Below are positions 1 through 42,049 of a stretch of DNA of 64,000 bases, one piece after another (position 1 is the first letter of the stretch; each line of letters starts with the position of its first letter). The notes under the pieces were generated by a model. It did not search any database, was not told where the DNA came from, and worked only from the letters and a program-made list of their open reading frames with translations. The translations under genes were made by a program, and so were the position numbers. Source of the DNA: an uncultured bacterium (GTDB lineage: Bacteria; Cyanobacteriota; Vampirovibrionia; Gastranaerophilales; Gastranaerophilaceae); the NCBI GenBank assembly GCA_949296425.1, contig CASFPN010000020.1:1-64000 (forward strand), read 5' to 3'.

Positions 1-1686
1 CGACGGACAAGTTTTATTACATTCGCAGCTACAGGTTCGTTTATTTAGAGTAAATCCCGAGGAACATATCTTGAGACAGTTACAGCTGCAGGTTCTTTTA
101 TCTAAAACAAATCCTGATGGACATGTCTTATTACATACACATCCGCAGGTAGAATTGTCCCAGGTAAAGCCGCTTGAACATGTTTTATTAACAGACGGGT
201 CAGCAACCCAGTTACCAGTTGAATGATCACACATTAAACCGCAATAATTTACACTATCATAACTTTGGCATTCAAAATAAGTTTGTTTACAACCACAAGA
301 CTCGTCATCCCAGGTATAATTGGCCGGACAAGTTTTATCAAATCCGGGAACATCTACCCAAGTACCGGTTGTAGTGTCGCATTCTTTACCGCAAGGTTGC
401 GCGCCGGTACAATTTATTACGACCGGAAGACAACTGCATATTCGCGAATCAAGTCTGTAGCCTGTTGGGCATGTTTTATTACATTTACAACTGCATATTC
501 GCGCATCAAGTCTGTAGCCTGTTGGGCATGTTTTATTACATTCACATCTGCAAGTATTTTTGTTTAAGGTAAAACCTGACGGGCAGGTTTTATTACATAC
601 ACAGCTACAGGTATTTTTGTTTAAGGTAAAACCTGAAGAACATGTTTTATTACATTCGCAGCTGCAGGTATTTTTGTTCAAGGTAAAACCTGAGGAACAT
701 GTTTTATTACATTCACAGCTACAGGTATTTTTGTTCAAGGTAAAACCTGAGGAACATGTTTTATTACATTCACAGCTACAAGTATTTTTGTTTAAGGTAA
801 AACCTGAAGAACATGTTTTATTACATTCACAGCTACAAGTATTTTTGTTCAAGGTAAAACCTGAAGAACATGTTTTATTACATTCACAACTGCAGGTATC
901 TTTGTTCAAGGTAAAACCTGAGGAACATGTTTTATTACATTCGCAGCTGCAGGTATCTTTGTTCAAGGTAAAACCCGAAGAACATGTTTTATTACATTCA
1001 CATTTACAAGTATCAGGGTTTATGGTCTTACCTTGTGCTTGACACAGTTGTTTCTGGAATGTTGAACAACCGGAAGGCTTAGAAGGCTCAACAATTGAAA
1101 CCTTCCTACACTCACAAGTTCCATCAGCCTTAAACAATAGTGTACCACCCTCAGCAGCACAAGACTCTGTAGTATAACCGCAGCCCGGCTTAACCAAACC
1201 GGGGTCGCAATTTTTACAGCCAATAGCACTGTAACATTTTTTGTTTGTATAATCACACATAGCTGAACATGAACATTGAGTACTGATATTCGCGGCATAA
1301 GCTGATTGTACTATACTGTACTTTATATTTCTAAAAAACTTTACAAATCCGCTAGTCTGCGATTTTTTTTGAGCTTCGGATAAATAAACAGGAAGAGTTG
1401 ATGTATAAGTTTCATCATTTTCGTTATAGTCAGTAATCATCTGTCTGGCAACATTTTTTAAAGTGCCATACCCTGAATAATATGTGTAGGTAATAACAGA
1501 ATCAAGTTTTGCCTTAGTAACACCAATAGTTATGGCGACTATTACTGAAATAATTAACATTACTATAATTACTTCAGTTAATGAATAAGACTCTAAAAGC
1601 CTTTTAAAAAGCTCAGAAGAGCCCCTCCCCCGACTTTGAAACGCACTTGCAATACGGTTTTTAGCCATAATTAAAAATCTTTTCAT
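1..1686 (-). CDS. Prepilin-like protein with Cys-rich 20-residue tandem repeats (3' end outside window)
   Basis: The reading frame is open from the ATG at 1686 to the left edge (562 codons), so the C-terminus is missing. The N-terminus has a charged leader of about 38 residues, then a type IV prepilin-like segment SYSLTEVIIVMLIISVIVA: Glu at +5, hydrophobic helix, but Ser rather than Gly before the cleavage point. After about 150 residues comes a Cys-rich region (CSCSAMCD..., CGYTTESC...) and then repeats of CECNKTCSSGFTLNKDTCS. These have an exact 60-bp period at about 541-1017 and diverge towards the left edge (CNKTCPTGYRLDSRICSC). Known: such N-termini are cut by prepilin peptidase (gene at 20350). 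Inferred: a disulfide-rich surface fibre or adhesin. The leader contains a G-rich stretch at 1622-1631 related to that of the other prepilin-like genes here, but in frame. Confidence 0.8.
   Translation of the reverse strand, partial: MKRFLIMAKNRIASAFQSRGRGSSELFKRLLESYSLTEVIIVMLIISVIVAITIGVTKAKLDSVITYTYYSGYGTLKNVARQMITDYNENDETYTSTLPVYLSEAQKKSQTSGFVKFFRNIKYSIVQSAYAANISTQCSCSAMCDYTNKKCYSAIGCKNCDPGLVKPGCGYTTESCAAEGGTLLFKADGTCECRKVSIVEPSKPSGCSTFQKQLCQAQGKTINPDTCKCECNKTCSSGFTLNKDTCSCECNKTCSSGFTLNKDTCSCECNKTCSSGFTLNKNTCSCECNKTCSSGFTLNKNTCSCECNKTCSSGFTLNKNTCSCECNKTCSSGFTLNKNTCSCECNKTCSSGFTLNKNTCSCVCNKTCPSGFTLNKNTCRCECNKTCPTGYRLDARICSCKCNKTCPTGYRLDSRICSCLPVVINCTGAQPCGKECDTTTGTWVDVPGFDKTCPANYTWDDESCGCKQTYFECQSYDSVNYCGLMCDHSTGNWVADPSVNKTCSSGFTWDNSTCGCVCNKTCPSGFVLDKRTCSCNCLKICSSGFTLNKRTCSCECNKTCPS
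541..1017. repeat. 60-bp tandem repeat array (about 8 copies)
   Basis: Nearly identical 60-bp units follow each other without spacers. Each encodes, on the minus strand, a 20-residue Cys-rich module with four cysteines. Copies differ by a few mostly synonymous changes (TGC/TGT, TCT/TCC). More diverged units continue from 540 to the left edge. The period is a multiple of three, so copy number can change without breaking the frame. Confidence 0.9.
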
Positions 1687-10858: not shown

Positions 10859-11623
10859 ATGAAAATTAATAATGTAAAATATAATTCATATAATCAAGCA
10901 ACATTTTTGGGTCTTTCATTCAGAAAGTTTAAACAATTCAAATTATTTGATGAAATACATTGCACTTTCAGACCTAAAAATGAAAAAATTCAAGATTGTG
11001 ATTATTTTGTAAGGATAGAAAACGGTTATACAGATACTGATTTTTCTATAAAAATTGATGATGATGATTTTAATGGAATCGGCAGCAGCACTCTTACATT
11101 AAAAGATGATACAACATTGTATAACGGTAATATAGATGTTATTTCTCAACGAAAAAAATATCGCGGCGCAGGTTCTGTAATGAAGCTGGGTGAAGTTATT
11201 ACAATGCTTGAAAATAATATCGAAAAAATTGAATTATATTCACTTGGTCAGGCTGTTTATTTTCATTCAAAATTTAAATTCAGACCCGCATTAACAAGCA
11301 TTGAAGATCTGAAAACTTATATAACTGATGATATTCTCTCAAAAAGAAGCGACAATAGATTTAAAGAAGTGTGCGATTTAGCGCAAGAGTGGCTAAATAA
11401 ACCTGAAAGCGAGAATTCTCTTGAAGAGGGAAACAGTATCCTTTACAAATACCTCCAAACAGTAAATGAATTTAAATTAAACAAAAATCCTGTATATGAA
11501 ATTATTCCGGGATTTGATATGGTATTGACACGTAAAAATATATTAGATAACAAAGATTATTTTAACAGTTTATTTAAAAAATTCGGGATTGATTACCAAA
11601 TTAACGATCAGTCCGCTTATTAA
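10859..11623 (+). CDS. Hypothetical protein with N-terminal F-x-G-like motif
   Basis: A 254-residue protein with no recognised family. It has no signal peptide or membrane helix. It begins MKINNVKYNSYNQATFLGLSF; a short polar head ending in (S/T)F-x-G recurs in the protein at 38311 (SFKGN, SFTGK). Residues 98-125 (YRGAGSVMKLGEVITMLENN) loosely recall the acetyl-CoA loop of GNAT folds, so an acetyltransferase-like fold is possible but unproven. Its 3' end overlaps the convergent matrixin gene by 23 bp. Confidence 0.65.
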   Translation: MKINNVKYNSYNQATFLGLSFRKFKQFKLFDEIHCTFRPKNEKIQDCDYFVRIENGYTDTDFSIKIDDDDFNGIGSSTLTLKDDTTLYNGNIDVISQRKKYRGAGSVMKLGEVITMLENNIEKIELYSLGQAVYFHSKFKFRPALTSIEDLKTYITDDILSKRSDNRFKEVCDLAQEWLNKPESENSLEEGNSILYKYLQTVNEFKLNKNPVYEIIPGFDMVLTRKNILDNKDYFNSLFKKFGIDYQINDQSAY

Positions 11624-12383
11624 GAAAAAATTTTTTCATATCCTCCGAAATCTGAACATTTTGAAGCGCCATATGATACTTTCGGAGATTTGCAATAGCT
11701 TCCTGTTCTTCCAACAAATCTCTTTTAGGTATTTTTATTGATTCTTTTACTTTTTCAAATTCAGTCGGAGTTTTTTTGTTTATAAACTTAGCGATAATTT
11801 CATCAATATTACTTCCACCTATGCTGTATTTTGAGGAAACTTCAGCGGTTGTAGCTCCCTGGGGGAGTGTATAGAGCCAGTTAACAGTCAATACATCTCC
11901 TTTAGAAACGGAGTTTATACCTTTTTGATGGGGTGTGTACATAATATCCGCCGGATTATGGCTGTGCCCCAAACCTATTGCATGGCCGATTTCATGCAAA
12001 ATAGTATGATAAACTTCTCCTTCATCCATATAATCTGCATGAACAAGTCCTTCTGTCAGCCCGATAGCAACTTCCGCGCTGTAAAGTCTGTTTGAACCAT
12101 CATAATTAAAGTAACAATGTCCGAGAGCTTTACGTTCAACTCTTTTCCAATCAACATTAACGTTTGATTCCAAAAGTGTGTTGACAACTTTGAAAGCAAC
12201 TCTACCTTTTGTTGCATTCTGCCATTCATCCAGCGCTCTGATAACCATTTGTCGGTATTTGTATTCCTGCCCCTGTTTGGAATAAAATTTCATAGGAGCA
12301 ATAAAAACCTTCAACGGCATAAAAGTCCAGCGCATTATTTTTCCGTTTTTTAAAGATTCAGCAACATAAGTGTACTTTTGCAT
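11601..12383 (-). CDS. Matrixin-type zinc metalloprotease
   Basis: A 260-residue protein with the metzincin signature HEIGHAIGLGHS (zinc ligands His130, His134, His140; catalytic Glu131). The Met-turn DIMYTPHQ follows (Met148). Upstream, WTFMPLKVFI and VIRALDEWQNATKGRVAF match the matrixin peptidase core, in which substrate-binding strands precede the helix. No signal peptide is visible, which is unusual for this normally secreted family. A TATAAT sits only 6 bases before the ATG on the minus strand, so transcription may begin at or near the start codon. It is divergent from ebfC. Confidence 0.82.
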   Translation of the reverse strand: MQKYTYVAESLKNGKIMRWTFMPLKVFIAPMKFYSKQGQEYKYRQMVIRALDEWQNATKGRVAFKVVNTLLESNVNVDWKRVERKALGHCYFNYDGSNRLYSAEVAIGLTEGLVHADYMDEGEVYHTILHEIGHAIGLGHSHNPADIMYTPHQKGINSVSKGDVLTVNWLYTLPQGATTAEVSSKYSIGGSNIDEIIAKFINKKTPTEFEKVKESIKIPKRDLLEEQEAIANLRKYHMALQNVQISEDMKKFFLNKRTDR

Positions 12384-23421: not shown

Positions 23422-24771
23422 TTATGCAAATACAGATATCACTAAACTATATACAATTTTAAATAATCTTATTATAGCATTATGTTCAGGTTCTATTTCA
23501 TATAATTTATCAACATCCAGCTCCGTTCCGTCTGAAAATTTAAAATTTTCAATCCTTTGTTCCTTAGACTTATACCAATTCTTGAGTGTTAATGAATTAT
23601 CGTTATTTTTAAGTGTAAACACAAGGTCATTTCCTTTTCTTTTAATAACAAAATCTTCTCTTGAAAGTTGCTCGGAAAAAATTACGGTATCATTGCCCCC
23701 GTCAACAAGAATCTTTCCTTTATCAACCCACTTGTCTTTGTAATCCGATATCCTATTATCCCAATACCAGCGTTGAACTCTTAATTTGCCGTATTTTTCA
23801 TCTTTAACAGAATCATTTCCAACGCCTGTATAAATATAAATATCGTTTCCTCCACCGCCTTCAAGCAAATTAAAACCTTCTGCACCGGCAAGAATATCTG
23901 AACCGTCTTCTCCGTAAATTCTGTCATTCCCGAATCCGCCATGTAAAAAGTCATCTCCCGAACCGCCTCTTATTAAATCGTTACCTCTGTTACCATAAAT
24001 TATATCAGGGGTATTTGCTCCGCTTATTCTGTCATTTTTTAATGAGCCGAAAAGATGCAGCGGTGTTTTTCCATCGGATTTTACATTCTTAAAATATTTC
24101 AAATCAGAACCGGAATTTGAATAAGTTATCAAATGCGCACCATAGCCGAAATGTTTTATTGCAGAAGCTAATTTGCCCGTATTAATTGTTTTGTCACGAA
24201 CAAGTCTTTGAAAAATTATATAGGAAGCTATATATGAATAACTGTCTGTCATATTTTTAATTATATTTTCATATACTTTTTCACCGGGAATCAATTTATT
24301 TTGAGCGTAATCATAGTTTATGTCAAAATTTTTGCCAAAACTTGTCTGAGCTATAAAGTCAACATAAAGCATATCCTTGAGCAATTTATATGCATTTCGA
24401 ATATTCTCAGGTTTATACTTCTCTATTTCCTCCTTCGGTATTTGCATAAATTTAGTCAAGATAAATTTTTGCATTGACAGCTCTGTTTCTGTTGTTCCAG
24501 TCCACATGGAAAGCAGCTTATCAAAATCAGCATAAATATGATTGGCAGAATTCATCGACGCTAATTTTTTTATAAATTGCCTCAGATATTCATCCTGAGA
24601 AGCTCTGAGCTGTAAATCATCAATTCTTCCAAAACCATGCAGCCACGGTAAATCAATCACATCAACTCTGATAGAATAATATTTAGCCGATGATTCATTT
24701 TTAACACGCTCATTAGCTGCTGATGATAAACAAAAACAAAATAAAATGAGTAATACCAGAAATTTTTTCAT
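23422..24771 (-). CDS. Secreted protein with RTX calcium-binding repeats
   Basis: A 449-residue protein. A Sec signal peptide occupies residues 1-20 (MKKFLVLLILFCFCLSSAAN). A helical domain of unknown family covers about 40-240. Glycine-rich nonapeptide repeats at about 245-315 (GNRGNDLIRGGSGDDFLHGG, GEDGSDILAG) bind calcium into a beta-roll. The tail FKFSDGTELDVDKLYEIE is typical of haemolysin-type repeats. Most RTX proteins leave by type I secretion without a Sec peptide, so the combination is unusual. It is last in the series parvulin, aminopeptidase P, SpoU methyltransferase, RTX. Confidence 0.82.
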   Translation of the reverse strand: MKKFLVLLILFCFCLSSAANERVKNESSAKYYSIRVDVIDLPWLHGFGRIDDLQLRASQDEYLRQFIKKLASMNSANHIYADFDKLLSMWTGTTETELSMQKFILTKFMQIPKEEIEKYKPENIRNAYKLLKDMLYVDFIAQTSFGKNFDINYDYAQNKLIPGEKVYENIIKNMTDSYSYIASYIIFQRLVRDKTINTGKLASAIKHFGYGAHLITYSNSGSDLKYFKNVKSDGKTPLHLFGSLKNDRISGANTPDIIYGNRGNDLIRGGSGDDFLHGGFGNDRIYGEDGSDILAGAEGFNLLEGGGGNDIYIYTGVGNDSVKDEKYGKLRVQRWYWDNRISDYKDKWVDKGKILVDGGNDTVIFSEQLSREDFVIKRKGNDLVFTLKNNDNSLTLKNWYKSKEQRIENFKFSDGTELDVDKLYEIEPEHNAIIRLFKIVYSLVISVFA

Positions 24772-29205: not shown

Positions 29206-30149
29206 CTATTGTCCGATACTTTGAAGCATTTGGTTTGTAGAACTGCCGCCTTTTTCAACCATACTTGCCCCGCTGCCGCTGAGCCATAAAGGCTTATTTA
29301 AAGCAGAAATAAGACGGAATTGAAAAACATCATATCCCCATTTATTCGGACCTTTTTTACCGTTTATATCTATTGCAAATAACTTAGTGTCCTTACCATA
29401 CCAAACAATAATTGTTCCATCTGCCAATACCCATATATGATTTTTGGTATGAATAGAATTTTCACGCCAGTTCGTAGATCCTGATGTTGCATTGCCGACT
29501 TGTTCTTCGTCAAAATCAGGGTTATTTTCCGCAACTATAGTATCATATCCCTTATACTCAGGAATACAGCCGTCTGCAACTCCGTTGCCTTTACATATCT
29601 TTATTAATTTCAATGTTTTTTGCAATTCATTTCGAAAAACATTGCAATCACTACCTTGATTTGTAGGATTTTCCGCCTCGCCCCATTGAACACAGTTGCC
29701 GTTTTCATATTTTAGACAGGGAGCTCCTACCCAGTCATGACCATAATAACACATCGGATGATATCCCAAATTTACTTCAGCCTGACGAAATCCGTTAAAA
29801 ACAATGTTGTAGGCGTGTTTAAACTGATTTTTTAAAATATGTTTTTGGACATTTGCACTTATAACGGGTAAAGTTATAGCTGCGACAACACCTATTATGC
29901 CGAGGGTGATGAGAACCTCTGCCAATGTAAACGCGCATTTACGTTGCTTGTTCGATAGGGCTGCGTGCGCAGCACCTTTTACAAGGGTAAAGACGTATTT
30001 ACATTGACATTTTACAAGATTTAAATAGCTTGACTTCCGGACATCTTGTCTTATCTCTAGCTCAGGAGTGCCCCCCCCCCGAAGGACAAGCTGTTTACAA
30101 GATCTTGTTTTAAGGCAGATAAGCTTGATAAATTACTCAATTTCTTCAT
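29206..30149 (-). CDS. Prepilin-like protein, start out of frame across a G10 tract
   Basis: The body (29206 to about 29940) has KCAFTLAEVLITLGIIGVVAAITLPVIS, a type IV prepilin N-terminus with Ala before the cleavage point, then about 220 residues including WVLADGTIIVWYG and FAIDINGKKGPNKWGYDVFQF. This frame is open upstream to the G tract at 30071-30080 but contains no ATG or GTG; only a TTG within the FTLAEV motif is available. The good start (ATG 30149, AAAGGAG upstream) is in another frame and hits TAG at 30057. A -1 shift or one extra G in the tract joins the two. A paralogue lies at 32707. Inferred: slippage- or phase-controlled pilin-like protein. Confidence 0.75.
30057..30149 (-). 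CDS. Leader ORF upstream of prepilin-like gene
   Basis: A 30-codon frame from the ATG at 30149 with a strong ribosome site. It ends SFGGGALLS and a stop at 30057-30059, immediately after the G10 tract. It is best read as the zero-frame part of the prepilin-like gene rather than as an independent peptide, because matching leaders with the same FGG(G/R)ALLS ending occur at 33564 and 41981. Confidence 0.5.
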   Translation of the reverse strand: MKKLSNLSSLSALKQDLVNSLSFGGGALLS

Positions 30150-32706: not shown

Positions 32707-33632
32707 CTATTTTGCTATTTCTTGCATCATTTCTGTTGTGCCTACTCCGCCTTTTTCAACCATATTTGCTCCGCCGCCTCTGAGCCATAAAGGCTTATTT
32801 AAAGCAGAAGTAAGACCGAATTGAAAAACATCGTATCCCCATTTATTCGGGCCTTTTTTACCGTTTATATCTAATGCAAATAATTTTGTATCAGAAGCAT
32901 ACCATATAATTATTATACCGTCTGCCAATACCCATATATGATTTCTGGTATGAATAGAATTTTCACGCCAGGCTGCGGCTCCTGAGGTCTGCAGAAGTAT
33001 ATCATCATTGTCTAAATCAGGGTTATTGTCCGCAACTATAGTATCATATCCCTTATACTCAGGAATACAGCCGTCTGCAACTCCGTTGCCTTCGCAAACT
33101 TTTATTACCTTGAGAGTTTTTAATAATGTTTGTCTAAATACTGCACAATCACTATTTTGATTTGTAGGATTTCCACCAGGGGCGTACTCAAGGCAGATGC
33201 CGGCTGTACTATCATATCTTATGCAATCAGTACCAATGTTGTCATCACCATAATAACACATTGGATGATATCCCAAATTTACTTCAGCCTGACGAAATCC
33301 GTTAAAAATAATGTTGTAGGCGTGTTTAAACTGATTTTTTAAAATATGTTTTTGGACATTTGCACTTATAACGGGTAAAGTTATAGCTGCGACAACACCT
33401 ATTATGCCGAGGGTGATGAGAACCTCTGCCAATGTAAACGCGCATTTGCGCTGCTTGTTTGATAGGGCTGCGTGCGCAGCACCTTTTACAAGGGTAAAGA
33501 CGTATTTACATTGACATTTTACAAGATTTAAATAGCTTGACTTCCGGACATCTTGTCTTATCTCTAGCTCAGGAGTGCCCTCCCCCCGAAGGGTTCAAAC
33601 TCAGTAATATTAACAGTTTTAACTTCTTCCAT
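32707..33632 (-). CDS. Prepilin-like protein, start out of frame across an interrupted G tract
   Basis: A paralogue of the gene at 29206. The segment from KCAFTLAEVLITLG through NVQKHILKNQFKHAYN and RQAEVNLGYHPMCYYG is almost identical, the middle differs, and the end (GKKGPNKWGYDVFQF) is again shared. The only good start (ATG 33632, behind GGAG) runs in zero frame to TAG at 33564. The body frame opens from the tract GGGGGGAGGG (33578-33587, 10 bases) and has no ATG or GTG of its own before the prepilin motif. A -1 shift or one inserted base would fuse them. That the 10-base length persists in an interrupted tract argues against a plain homopolymer sequencing error. Confidence 0.75.
33564..33632 (-). 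CDS. Leader ORF upstream of prepilin-like gene
   Basis: A 22-codon frame MEEVKTVNITEFEPFGGRALLS with GGAG upstream, ending just past the G tract. It is probably the zero-frame N-terminus of the prepilin-like gene at 32707. The sister leader at 41981 reads MEEAKIVTIVEFEPFGGGALLS. Confidence 0.5.
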   Translation of the reverse strand: MEEVKTVNITEFEPFGGRALLS

Positions 33633-36596: not shown

Positions 36597-37778
36597 CTAC
36601 TTAAGCAGATACTCTGCAGAACAACACCCGCCTGAAACCACTTCACCAACTCCGCCGGCTCCGGCAAAATATGTCATAGTTTCGGTCCCGGCATCCTTTG
36701 AACATTCACATTTTCCGTTGTTTGCGTCTTTATTATAAGTTCCCTCAGCTCCAAGAGGTAAAATTTTGTTGTTAAATACCGATATAATAAAAAAGTCGCG
36801 TCCTATTTGATTTGGCCCTTGTGCTGCTCCGTTTACATCAACAGATATCCAAGGACCGCCATGGGTGCCGCCAAGATATACAACACTGCCATCTTTTAAT
36901 AAAAATGCAACATTTGCCAAACTATAAACTGCGACAGGAGTTTGATTTCGCTCATTATATGGTAGCTTTAAAGTTCCATATACAGTACTACCAATTGATA
37001 TACCAGCCCAATAAAATTTAATATGAGAACTAAATCCATCATTATCACATTTTGGGTCTATATATCTGTAACACGCAGATACTGGTTGTAAAATTGCTCT
37101 AAATCTTTCTATGAATTCTTCTGAATATTGAAAAGTATCTCCGCCATATTTATTTGACGAGTCTAAAGGCATACTGCATTTACCATTAGAATAGGTGCCT
37201 TGCCTGCATACCGTAATATTCTCAGATATAATTAAATTAAAAGCATTACTTACAGTTGAATAAGCTTTTTTCCACTTTGTAATATTTTGCCTGTCCTGTA
37301 TTTTTGAAATTATAACAGGCATTGTTATCGCCGCAACAACACCTATAATACCGAGGGTGATGAGAACCTCAGGCAATGTAAACGCGCATTTGCGCTGCTT
37401 GTTCGATAGGGCTGCGTGCGCAGCACCCTTTACAAGGGTAAAGACGTATTTGCGTTGGCTGATCGGCGGATCTACGTGCGTAGCACCTTTTGCAAGAGTA
37501 AAGACGGATTTGCGTTGGCTGGTCGGTAGGACTACGTGCGTAGCACCTTTTGCAAGAGTAAAGAGTATTTGCGTTGACTGACCGGCAGATCTACGTGCGT
37601 AGCACCCCTCTCCCGGGAGAGGAAAAATTTTTACGATACTTATTAGTGCCTTAGTGACATAGTATCTTACGAAATTTAAATTGCTTGACTTCCTGACATC
37701 TTGACTTATCTCTAGCTCTGGAGTGCCCCCCCCCCCGAAGCTCTGCAAAAATTCTCTTGAACCTTTTTTCATTCGCAA
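36597..37778 (-). CDS. Prepilin-like protein with tandem-repeat leader, in frame across G11
   Basis: A 393-residue frame, open from the ATG at 37778 through an 11-base G tract (37726-37736; read SFGGGGTPELEI). A long leader contains three copies of a 20-residue unit of the form FTLAKGATHVxxPxSQRK (37383-37612). Then comes the prepilin motif RKCAFTLPEVLITLGIIGVVAAITMPVIISK, with Ala before the cleavage point and Pro for Ala at +4. The body includes VYLGGTHGGPWISVDVNGAAQGPNQIGRDFF. It is the only one of the four related genes with an in-frame tract, so it may be in the expressed phase. A leader this long is far beyond the 5-25 residues usual for type IV prepilins. Confidence 0.82.
   Translation of the reverse strand: MRMKKGSREFLQSFGGGGTPELEISQDVRKSSNLNFVRYYVTKALISIVKIFPLPGEGCYARRSAGQSTQILFTLAKGATHVVLPTSQRKSVFTLAKGATHVDPPISQRKYVFTLVKGAAHAALSNKQRKCAFTLPEVLITLGIIGVVAAITMPVIISKIQDRQNITKWKKAYSTVSNAFNLIISENITVCRQGTYSNGKCSMPLDSSNKYGGDTFQYSEEFIERFRAILQPVSACYRYIDPKCDNDGFSSHIKFYWAGISIGSTVYGTLKLPYNERNQTPVAVYSLANVAFLLKDGSVVYLGGTHGGPWISVDVNGAAQGPNQIGRDFFIISVFNNKILPLGAEGTYNKDANNGKCECSKDAGTETMTYFAGAGGVGEVVSGGCCSAEYLLK
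37383..37612. repeat. 60-bp tandem repeats with palindrome in prepilin leader
   Basis: Nearly four units of about 60 bp, each with a short palindrome: GCTGCG-TG-CGCAGC in the first unit, CTACG-TG-CGTAG in the others. Both arms change together, so base pairing is kept while the sequence varies. One such unit is present in the leaders at 29955-30000 and 33450-33500. Confidence 0.75.
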
Positions 37779-41108: not shown

Positions 41109-42049
41109 TTACGGCAGACTTACCCAATAGCCTTTTGTTTCATCGTCAGGATTTATATCATTCATAGCATACCAAGAACAGCCCAATCCATTGCCTTTCT
41201 GAGATGAATCAACAGAACAGGGGCTGCCTGCCTGAGAAACCGTTGAATTAACATCCGAATGCTCGGAATTAAAGTTATTTTCTATATCTTTAAGTTCATC
41301 TTCAGTATATTTTTTTGACATTTTTACAGGTAGAAGCTTATCATTACTGTCTACCCTGAAAACAAATATATCATGGCCTACCCTGTTAGGGCCTTTTTTA
41401 GCTCCGTTAATATCAACTGTTATATTAATAACCATGCCATTTATATTCACACTGCAACACGAACCGTCAGGGAGCTGGCGATCTGGATTATGATTACCTA
41501 AATCTATATATGCATCAGCAGTATTGGAATAATTTCTTACAGGCTTATCGTATTTACATTGCCCGGCCACTTTCAATTGTTTATAATATTCATTCTGAAA
41601 TTCCATTTTATGAGGATAAACTTTATTCGCAGCATCATAATCGGCGAAAGACAAGTTTAAATTTTCAACTCCCAGACTTTGCTTTGTATATAACAAAGCC
41701 TGTGATTGAACAGAATAAGCTTTTTTAAACGCAGTTTCCAGCTGCTTATTTTGAGTCCGATTTATTAAAGTAGGCATAGTCATAGCCGCAACAACACCTA
41801 TGATGCCGAGGGTGATTAAGACTTCCGCAAGGGTGAACCCGTATTTGTGCACAAGTGAAGTGTGAAGGAATGAAGACAATTTATTACTATGATGTTCCAT
41901 ATCACTATTATGACATAAATTTGCTATTTTTACAAGAGTTAGGGAACATTTGTGTTTTGGGGACGAATGAGTCTTTATCTCTAGCTCAGGAGTGCCCCCC
42001 CCCCGAAGGGTTCAAACTCAACAATAGTAACAATCTTAGCTTCTTCCAT
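41109..42049 (-). CDS. Prepilin-like protein, start out of frame across a G10 tract
   Basis: The body has a canonical prepilin site KYGFTLAEVLITLGIIGVVAAMTMPTLI with Gly before the cleavage point. It ends with INITVDINGAKKGPNRVGHDIF and a polar C-terminus. In this copy an in-frame ATG exists at 41900 (MEHHSNKLSS), without a ribosome site. The frame is open further upstream, through TPELEIKTHSS, to the G10 tract at 41995-42004, where a TGA closes it. The start with a ribosome site (ATG 42049) runs in zero frame to TAG at 41981. The same -1 shift or extra G as in the other copies would join it to the body. If translation starts at 41900 the product has 263 residues. Confidence 0.78.
41981..42049 (-). 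CDS. Leader ORF upstream of prepilin-like gene
   Basis: A 22-codon frame MEEAKIVTIVEFEPFGGGALLS, nearly the same as the leader at 33564 and preceded by GGAG. It ends right after the G10 tract. Probably the zero-frame start of the gene at 41109. Confidence 0.5.
   Translation of the reverse strand: MEEAKIVTIVEFEPFGGGALLS

Follow-up and report, generated by a model that had tools for sequence, protein, structure and literature searches.

A large pilin-like protein with a cysteine-rich modular stem of variable length, putatively stiffened by disulfides, in Candidatus Gastranaerophilales

Introduction

The Gastranaerophilales, a gut lineage related to cyanobacteria, are largely uncultured. The question raised by the locus considered here is what kind of protein is specified by a minus-strand gene that lies at the very edge of contig C20 in one genome of this lineage (2.0 Mb in 46 contigs) and joins a prepilin-like N-terminus to a long succession of cysteine-rich repeats. 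The window analysed comprises the first 64,000 bases of this contig. On balance, the gene appears to encode a large surface protein of Candidatus (Ca.) Gastranaerophilales, modular and pilin-like, with a stem that varies in length and is probably stiffened by disulfides.

The gene and its repeat unit

The frame is open without a stop and, because position 1 of the window is also the start of contig C20, the gene is truncated by the assembly and not just by the window. Its parts are listed in Table 1. Tandem Repeats Finder assigns the array a period of 57 bp, corresponding to a unit of 19 residues, CNKTCSSGFTLNKNTCSCE; compared with itself, the coding strand scores 0.661 at lag 57 vs 0.287 at lag 60, the best value among 500 mononucleotide shuffles at lags 20–120 being 0.324. 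The value at lag 60 rules out the exact 60-bp (20-residue) period that the first-pass annotation had attributed to the array, and the tandem units with four Cys each that it described are indeed found in the minus-strand frame. The span 1–1017, to which it had assigned the repeats, holds 19-residue units together with two longer Cys modules of different kinds (411–289 and 270–139), and the helix of the prepilin-like N-terminus, correctly recognised, lies outside that span, at about 1587–1498. From the first unit onward, 62 of 332 residues are Cys. In units 1–7 the departures from the consensus comprise 14 synonymous and 3 amino-acid-changing ones against a random expectation of 32:139 (32/171 silent), a silent excess having a Fisher p of 2e-7 when the copies are treated as independent, which they are not; judging from the sequence, the reading frame of the array looks maintained.

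Pfam CXCXC (PF03128), a motif of 13 positions, matches the window protein with 48.1 bits (cut-off 15) over 10 stretches, and antistasin matches one unit with 22.1 bits (cut-off 21.2). The spacing by which BR3P is defined, C-x10-C-x-C-x(1,3)-C (PMC10328876), fits the protein 12 times, and both signatures are thus present. As described for VEGF-C and silk proteins (PF03128, PMC10328876), the CXCXC/Balbiani ring 3 repeat has the same spacing and is likewise tandem, extracellular and variable in copy number, whereas here the repeat is bacterial and is carried by a pilin-like anchor. For so short a motif, ancestry shared with the animal repeats and convergence would be indistinguishable. Since the CXCXC/BR3P motif has no fixed role, its likeness to the present unit does not refute the idea of an extracellular rod put forward in the first-pass annotation. 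Searches of Protein Data Bank (PDB) sequences gave best E values of 0.75 with the repeat and 0.15 with the repeat profile.

The structure predicted for five units, from an alignment of 11 staggered rows taken from the window and from L054, a complete relative described below, is an extended array with one hairpin per unit, of high confidence as judged by a mean predicted local distance difference test (pLDDT) score of 91.4, the predicted template modelling score (pTM) being 0.57. In this respect prediction bears out the shape first surmised. With VIA-align the best Z, 3.0, was obtained for fibrillin cbEGF domains, followed by TNF-receptor-type Cys-rich domains; the fold searches suggest a weak general likeness of the model to extended disulfide-rich domains (EGF, LDL-receptor and TNF-receptor type). 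An extended rod formed by the array is plausible on this model.

The missing 3′ end

When the genome was searched with the whole window protein as query, the only Cys-rich matches outside C20 were on contig C25, where a frame cut at the contig edge within the same kind of module remains open for 646 codons up to a stop. Since the other family heads of the genome are either complete (C9, C17) or cut later, inside the C-terminal domain (C8, C14, C16), C25 is left as the sole tail with no head, and C20 as the sole head with no Cys-rich tail. C25 probably carries the 3′ half of the window gene, a join resting on elimination and similarity.

The scan of the genome collection yielded one relative, L054, from a Ca. 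Gastranaerophilales metagenome-assembled genome (isolate E12__bin100); the gene, whose DNA is identical to that of L055, is complete and encodes 1232 residues, 138 of them Cys, in a frame open throughout. L054 has both types of module (19-residue and 41–44-residue) and begins and ends in the same way; its Cys modules, like those of C25, the probable 3′ half, are followed by a conserved C-terminal domain. Its 5′ end has 75% DNA identity to the window across 307 bases and its 3′ half 70% to C25 across 1.8 kb; no synteny between L054 and C25 was found outside the gene. The first-pass annotation had suggested looking for the C-terminal end in the adjoining contig, and C25 supplies a probable 3′ half, albeit one that does not overlap C20; the frame break in the 3′ part that it had regarded as damaging to its proposal is seen neither on C25 nor in L054.

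A lineage family, conserved at its ends and variable between them

By sequence, the gene belongs to a family of this lineage whose ends are conserved and whose Cys-rich middle is variable. The family was sampled as 60 stretches matched in 33 genomes belonging to the genus, plus six from the window's own genome and the window, not every hit being included. Among the sampled frames 67 have the N-terminus and 55 the C-terminal domain, the two occurring together in 54; each of the 13 frames that have only the N-terminus is cut off where the DNA ends, and every uncut member with the N-terminus (49/49) also has the C-terminal domain. These 49 complete members have mature lengths of 324–1202 residues and contain 10–138 Cys, so that the variable length claimed at the outset holds for the stem when relatives are compared. 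The C-terminal-domain profile has matches, many of them weak or partial, in 146 of 374 genomes of the class and, within the genus, in 26 of the 27 genomes listed. At E 1e-6 the tandem 19-residue array was found in 4 of 386 sampled genomes of the phylum, all of this genus, a count that includes the window's own genome, from which the profile derives, the genome of L054 not being among those listed.

Five pairs of uncut members from the same genome were compared, only pairs with an N-terminal DNA identity of at least 0.80 being considered and DNA at the ends being set against protein in the middle: C-terminal DNA identity is 0.83–1.00 and the middles have 38–58% protein identity over 44–79% of their length. 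Ends more alike than middles within a genome would fit turnover of the modules, perhaps their diversification.

Within the C-terminal domain a sub-branch has a long Ser/Asn/Gln-rich insertion (L020, from the window's genome, G000), and L060 and L061 (G009), whose last 640 bases are identical, depart there from the other members. L022, L023 and L024 (on the G000 contigs C14, C16 and C8) and other loci frequently reach a contig end while still within DNA that other copies share; many of these genes are probably lost or collapsed when genomes of this lineage are assembled. Neither the C-terminal profile nor the repeat array found a relative in the viral contigs scanned, and the 14 weakly similar records of a plasmid collection (31–34% identity in the five listed) were set aside as sharing Cys richness.

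Probable pairing of the cysteines

Complete pairing of the Cys would require an even number of them. An even number is found in 44 of the 49 complete members, the corresponding figures for the 19 other residues being 17–32 of 49; the members are related and a binomial p value is therefore too small, yet no other residue is so biased. When the middle region is counted alone the number is even in 34 of 49, so that the C-terminal domain, too, appears to take part in pairing. The genome furthermore encodes a VKOR–DsbA fusion. From the even number and from this enzyme, the Cys are very probably paired as disulfides, which upholds the disulfide modules of the first-pass annotation.

Relation to type IV pilins

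The N-terminal profile of 16 relatives aligns with that of 18 ordinary pilins of the same genome with an hhalign probability of 95.5 (E 1.5e-8), in support of the membrane-anchored, pilin-like stem originally suggested. The segment YSLTEVIIVMLIISVIVAITIGV conforms to the description of 20–25 hydrophobic residues with Glu usually at +5, and all 67 relatives fit the pattern, which itself requires Glu at +5. At the opposite end of the protein, 38 columns of the C-terminal domain align with the core of the ordinary pilins, VDVNGxKGPN..G.DVF (hhalign probability 85.4, E 5.8e-6), with a score of 43.6, whereas 60 column shuffles reach no more than 22.6 and two reversed profiles about 14. A search of PDB sequences with the C-terminal profile gave no match up to E 10.

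Components of a type IV pilus machine are encoded in the same genome: PilB, PilC and a secretin on C4, named from strong matches below the cut-offs, and two PilT-like ATPases, above the cut-off, on C41 and C43. In addition, C29 carries a second PilC/GspF-like protein.

Table 1. Features of the window (positions in the window unless another locus is named)
Feature	Position	Strand	Basis or remark
Pilin-like Cys-rich protein gene	1..1686	-	562 codons, 3′ end cut by contig edge
Predicted leader peptide, 33 residues, Ser at predicted cleavage point	1588..1686	-	Sequence
Prepilin-type hydrophobic helix YSLTEVIIVMLIISVIVAITIGVTKAKLDS, Glu at +5	1498..1587	-	Sequence and N-terminal profile comparison
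Neck from helix to first repeat, irregular Cys spacing near its end	997..1497	-	
Ten tandem 19-residue (57 bp) modules, C-x3-C-x10-C-x-C plus one residue	427..996	-	Pfam CXCXC; Tandem Repeats Finder
First longer Cys module, 41 residues, six Cys	289..411	-	
Second longer Cys module, 44 residues	139..270	-	
Two more 19-residue modules; a third starts and is cut at position 1	22..135	-	
Prepilin peptidase, sole Peptidase_A24 match in the genome	20350..21345	+	Presumed processing enzyme
Ordinary pilin-like genes	29209-29925, 32713-33432, 36600-37403, 41112-41858	-	
Leader-like peptide copies	29975-30000, 33482-33507, 37388-37606; L019 8428-9360		
Secreted-looking protein with GGxGxD-type glycine/aspartate repeats	23422-24771	-	Sequence
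Small predicted zinc metallopeptidase, HEIGHAIGLGH motif	11601-12383	-	

Ordinary pilin-like genes number about 90 in this genome, a large prepilin repertoire for 2 Mb, and unusually so. An ordinary pilin used as query against its own genome matched 106 stretches, about 91 of them at its N-terminus, and the corresponding profile gave 117 matches; elsewhere, ordinary pilin matches number 27–145 in twelve genomes of the same genus and 6–24 in seven other genomes of the order. Copies of a leader-like peptide (about QRKYVFTLAKGATHV) occur in frame upstream of several ordinary pilin starts and look, from their sequence, like duplicated 5′ ends of pilin genes. One tandem array of them, at 37415–37606, has a spacing of 60 bp, and it is to this array that the 60-bp period belongs. 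As to the remaining genes of Table 1, we take the glycine/aspartate repeats to resemble calcium-binding RTX repeats, and HEIGHAIGLGH is presumably a zinc metallopeptidase motif.

Discussion

In the mechanism that can be envisaged, the prepilin peptidase whose gene lies in the window would remove the leader and the helix would anchor the protein in the inner membrane, whence the type IV pilus machine (PilB, PilC, PilT-like, secretin) would incorporate it, probably as a rare subunit at the tip. Oxidation of the Cys by the VKOR–DsbA enzyme would turn the stem into an extended disulfide-bonded rod. The C-terminal domain would be a modified pilin head and the Cys modules an insertion between helix and head, keeping the latter away from the anchor at a distance set by their number, and the whole protein may serve adhesion or surface recognition, gain and loss of modules setting its reach and its binding surface. 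While incorporation into the pilus and adhesion are both inferred, a part in adhesion or recognition is suggested by analogy with Streptococcus sanguinis PilB, as presented in PMC8179133, and with the TraA stalk proposed in PMC3325183. In its fullest form, which is possible and which we advance tentatively, this proposal sees lineage-wide giant pilins in which the loop between helix and head has expanded into a modular disulfide rod, the heads standing at variable distances on the pili, and in which the repeat is convergent or shared with the animal BR3P/VEGF-C silk-type motif.

Several observations weigh against such a proposal. According to a review (PMC10191384), class III leaders are hydrophilic and end in Gly or Ala; the window protein has Ser at −1, a residue found there in 12 of the 67 relatives (Ala in 32, Gly in 23). 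Pfam N_methyl (cut-off 21.2 bits) has no match in the window protein, and in a scan of eight family proteins, which included the C25 half that has no N-terminus, it scored below the cut-off in three (11.8–17.8 bits) and was absent from five; the ComGC model reaches 15.6 bits against a cut-off of 75. If a modular pilin is taken to combine a pilin signature with a domain not specific to pili, the extra domain is present, as CXCXC, and the curated pilin signature is not reached. The single-sequence model of the C-terminal domain is unusable (pLDDT 31), so that the pilin fold, in which a long alpha-1 is combined with a beta-sheet head, rests on the 38 aligned columns, and the family genes are scattered over separate contigs. 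The high pLDDT of the repeat model was obtained on near-identical repeats and is uncontrolled, its pTM is 0.57, and a PDB fold search with it gave no significant match (best Foldseek E 0.39), which is no proof of a new fold. Finally, C20 and C25 share no sequence overlap and are separated by a gap. Because of the Ser at −1, the unreached curated models and the failure of the C-terminal domain to model, the window protein is here called pilin-like and is not filed as a proven pilin; it probably works like a modular pilin.

The scattering over separate contigs and the unreached curated models would also suit a pilin-like envelope protein that never enters a filament, tethered by its helix and bearing the C-terminal domain on the Cys rod, a stalk that would span the periplasm or the surface; mature lengths of up to 1202 residues would moreover burden the packing of a filament. 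We consider this unlikely in view of the prepilin-type start with Glu at +5 in all 67 N-termini (Glu being required by the pattern) and of the core motif common to the C-terminal domain and the ordinary pilins; as for size, it may be less limiting at the tips that modular pilins may occupy, as stated in PMC8179133. The likeness of the ends and the divergence of the middles in the five same-genome pairs, together with the several copies that break at contig ends within similar DNA, are what would be expected of a diversifying surface coat or decoy, in which conserved ends let copies recombine and the varying Cys-rich middle evades host immunity, phages or competitors. However, the pairs were chosen for N-terminal similarity, DNA ends were compared with a protein middle, and ordinary divergence of a loosely constrained stem would have the same appearance; such a coat is, in our estimate, distinctly improbable.

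The very high Cys content and the CXC motifs might recall a metal-binding, metallothionein-like protein, an identity made most improbable by the exported topology, the even Cys number in relatives and the VKOR–DsbA enzyme, all of which favour disulfides. It is just as hard to credit that the gene is an artefact, i.e., a chimeric or collapsed repeat contig. It does stop at a contig edge, and short-read assemblies often miscount tandem copies, which counts in favour of an artefact; on the other hand, the complete L054, from another genome, has the same modules and the same order of ends, and most of the changes between copies are silent. Even so, ten may not be the correct copy number.

The modular pilin-like protein that we favour has known counterparts. 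Modular type IV pilins are reported to comprise more than 1,200 proteins of 264 architectures and to carry adhesive modules, probably at pilus tips (PMC8179133). Those of S. sanguinis (PilB, PilC), as described there, have the same prepilin-type N-terminus and a non-pilin module, whereas here Cys modules separate the helix from a conserved C-terminal domain; the initial statement that no described pilin is built like this was accordingly too strong, pilins with grafted domains having been described. BR3P-like repeats are not named in that account, whose dataset lay outside the comparison. In GspK of type II secretion, according to the same source, an extra domain is likewise inserted within the pilin module, but it is an alpha domain in a beta-sheet and no Cys repeats are mentioned. 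TraA of Myxococcus too has Cys-rich tandem repeats, which its authors propose to form the rigid stalk of a surface receptor; it differs, as presented in PMC3325183, in its ordinary signal peptide, PA14 domain, MYXO-CTERM anchor and other repeat (TIGR04201). Modular pilins and CXCXC repeats are thus already known, and what is new is their combination, with a Cys region between helix and C-terminal domain that is expanded in a paralogous family. No earlier description of Cys-repeat pilins in this lineage was found in the open-licence literature, the scope of which left aside subscription papers, preprints and the dataset of PMC8179133.

If the proposal is true, the range of modular pilins would extend from end-fused modules to rods of variable length placed within the pilin itself. 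The proposal would also point to an oxidative, disulfide-based route to extracellular rods in a gut lineage and may offer a handle on how the Gastranaerophilales touch their host or their neighbours.
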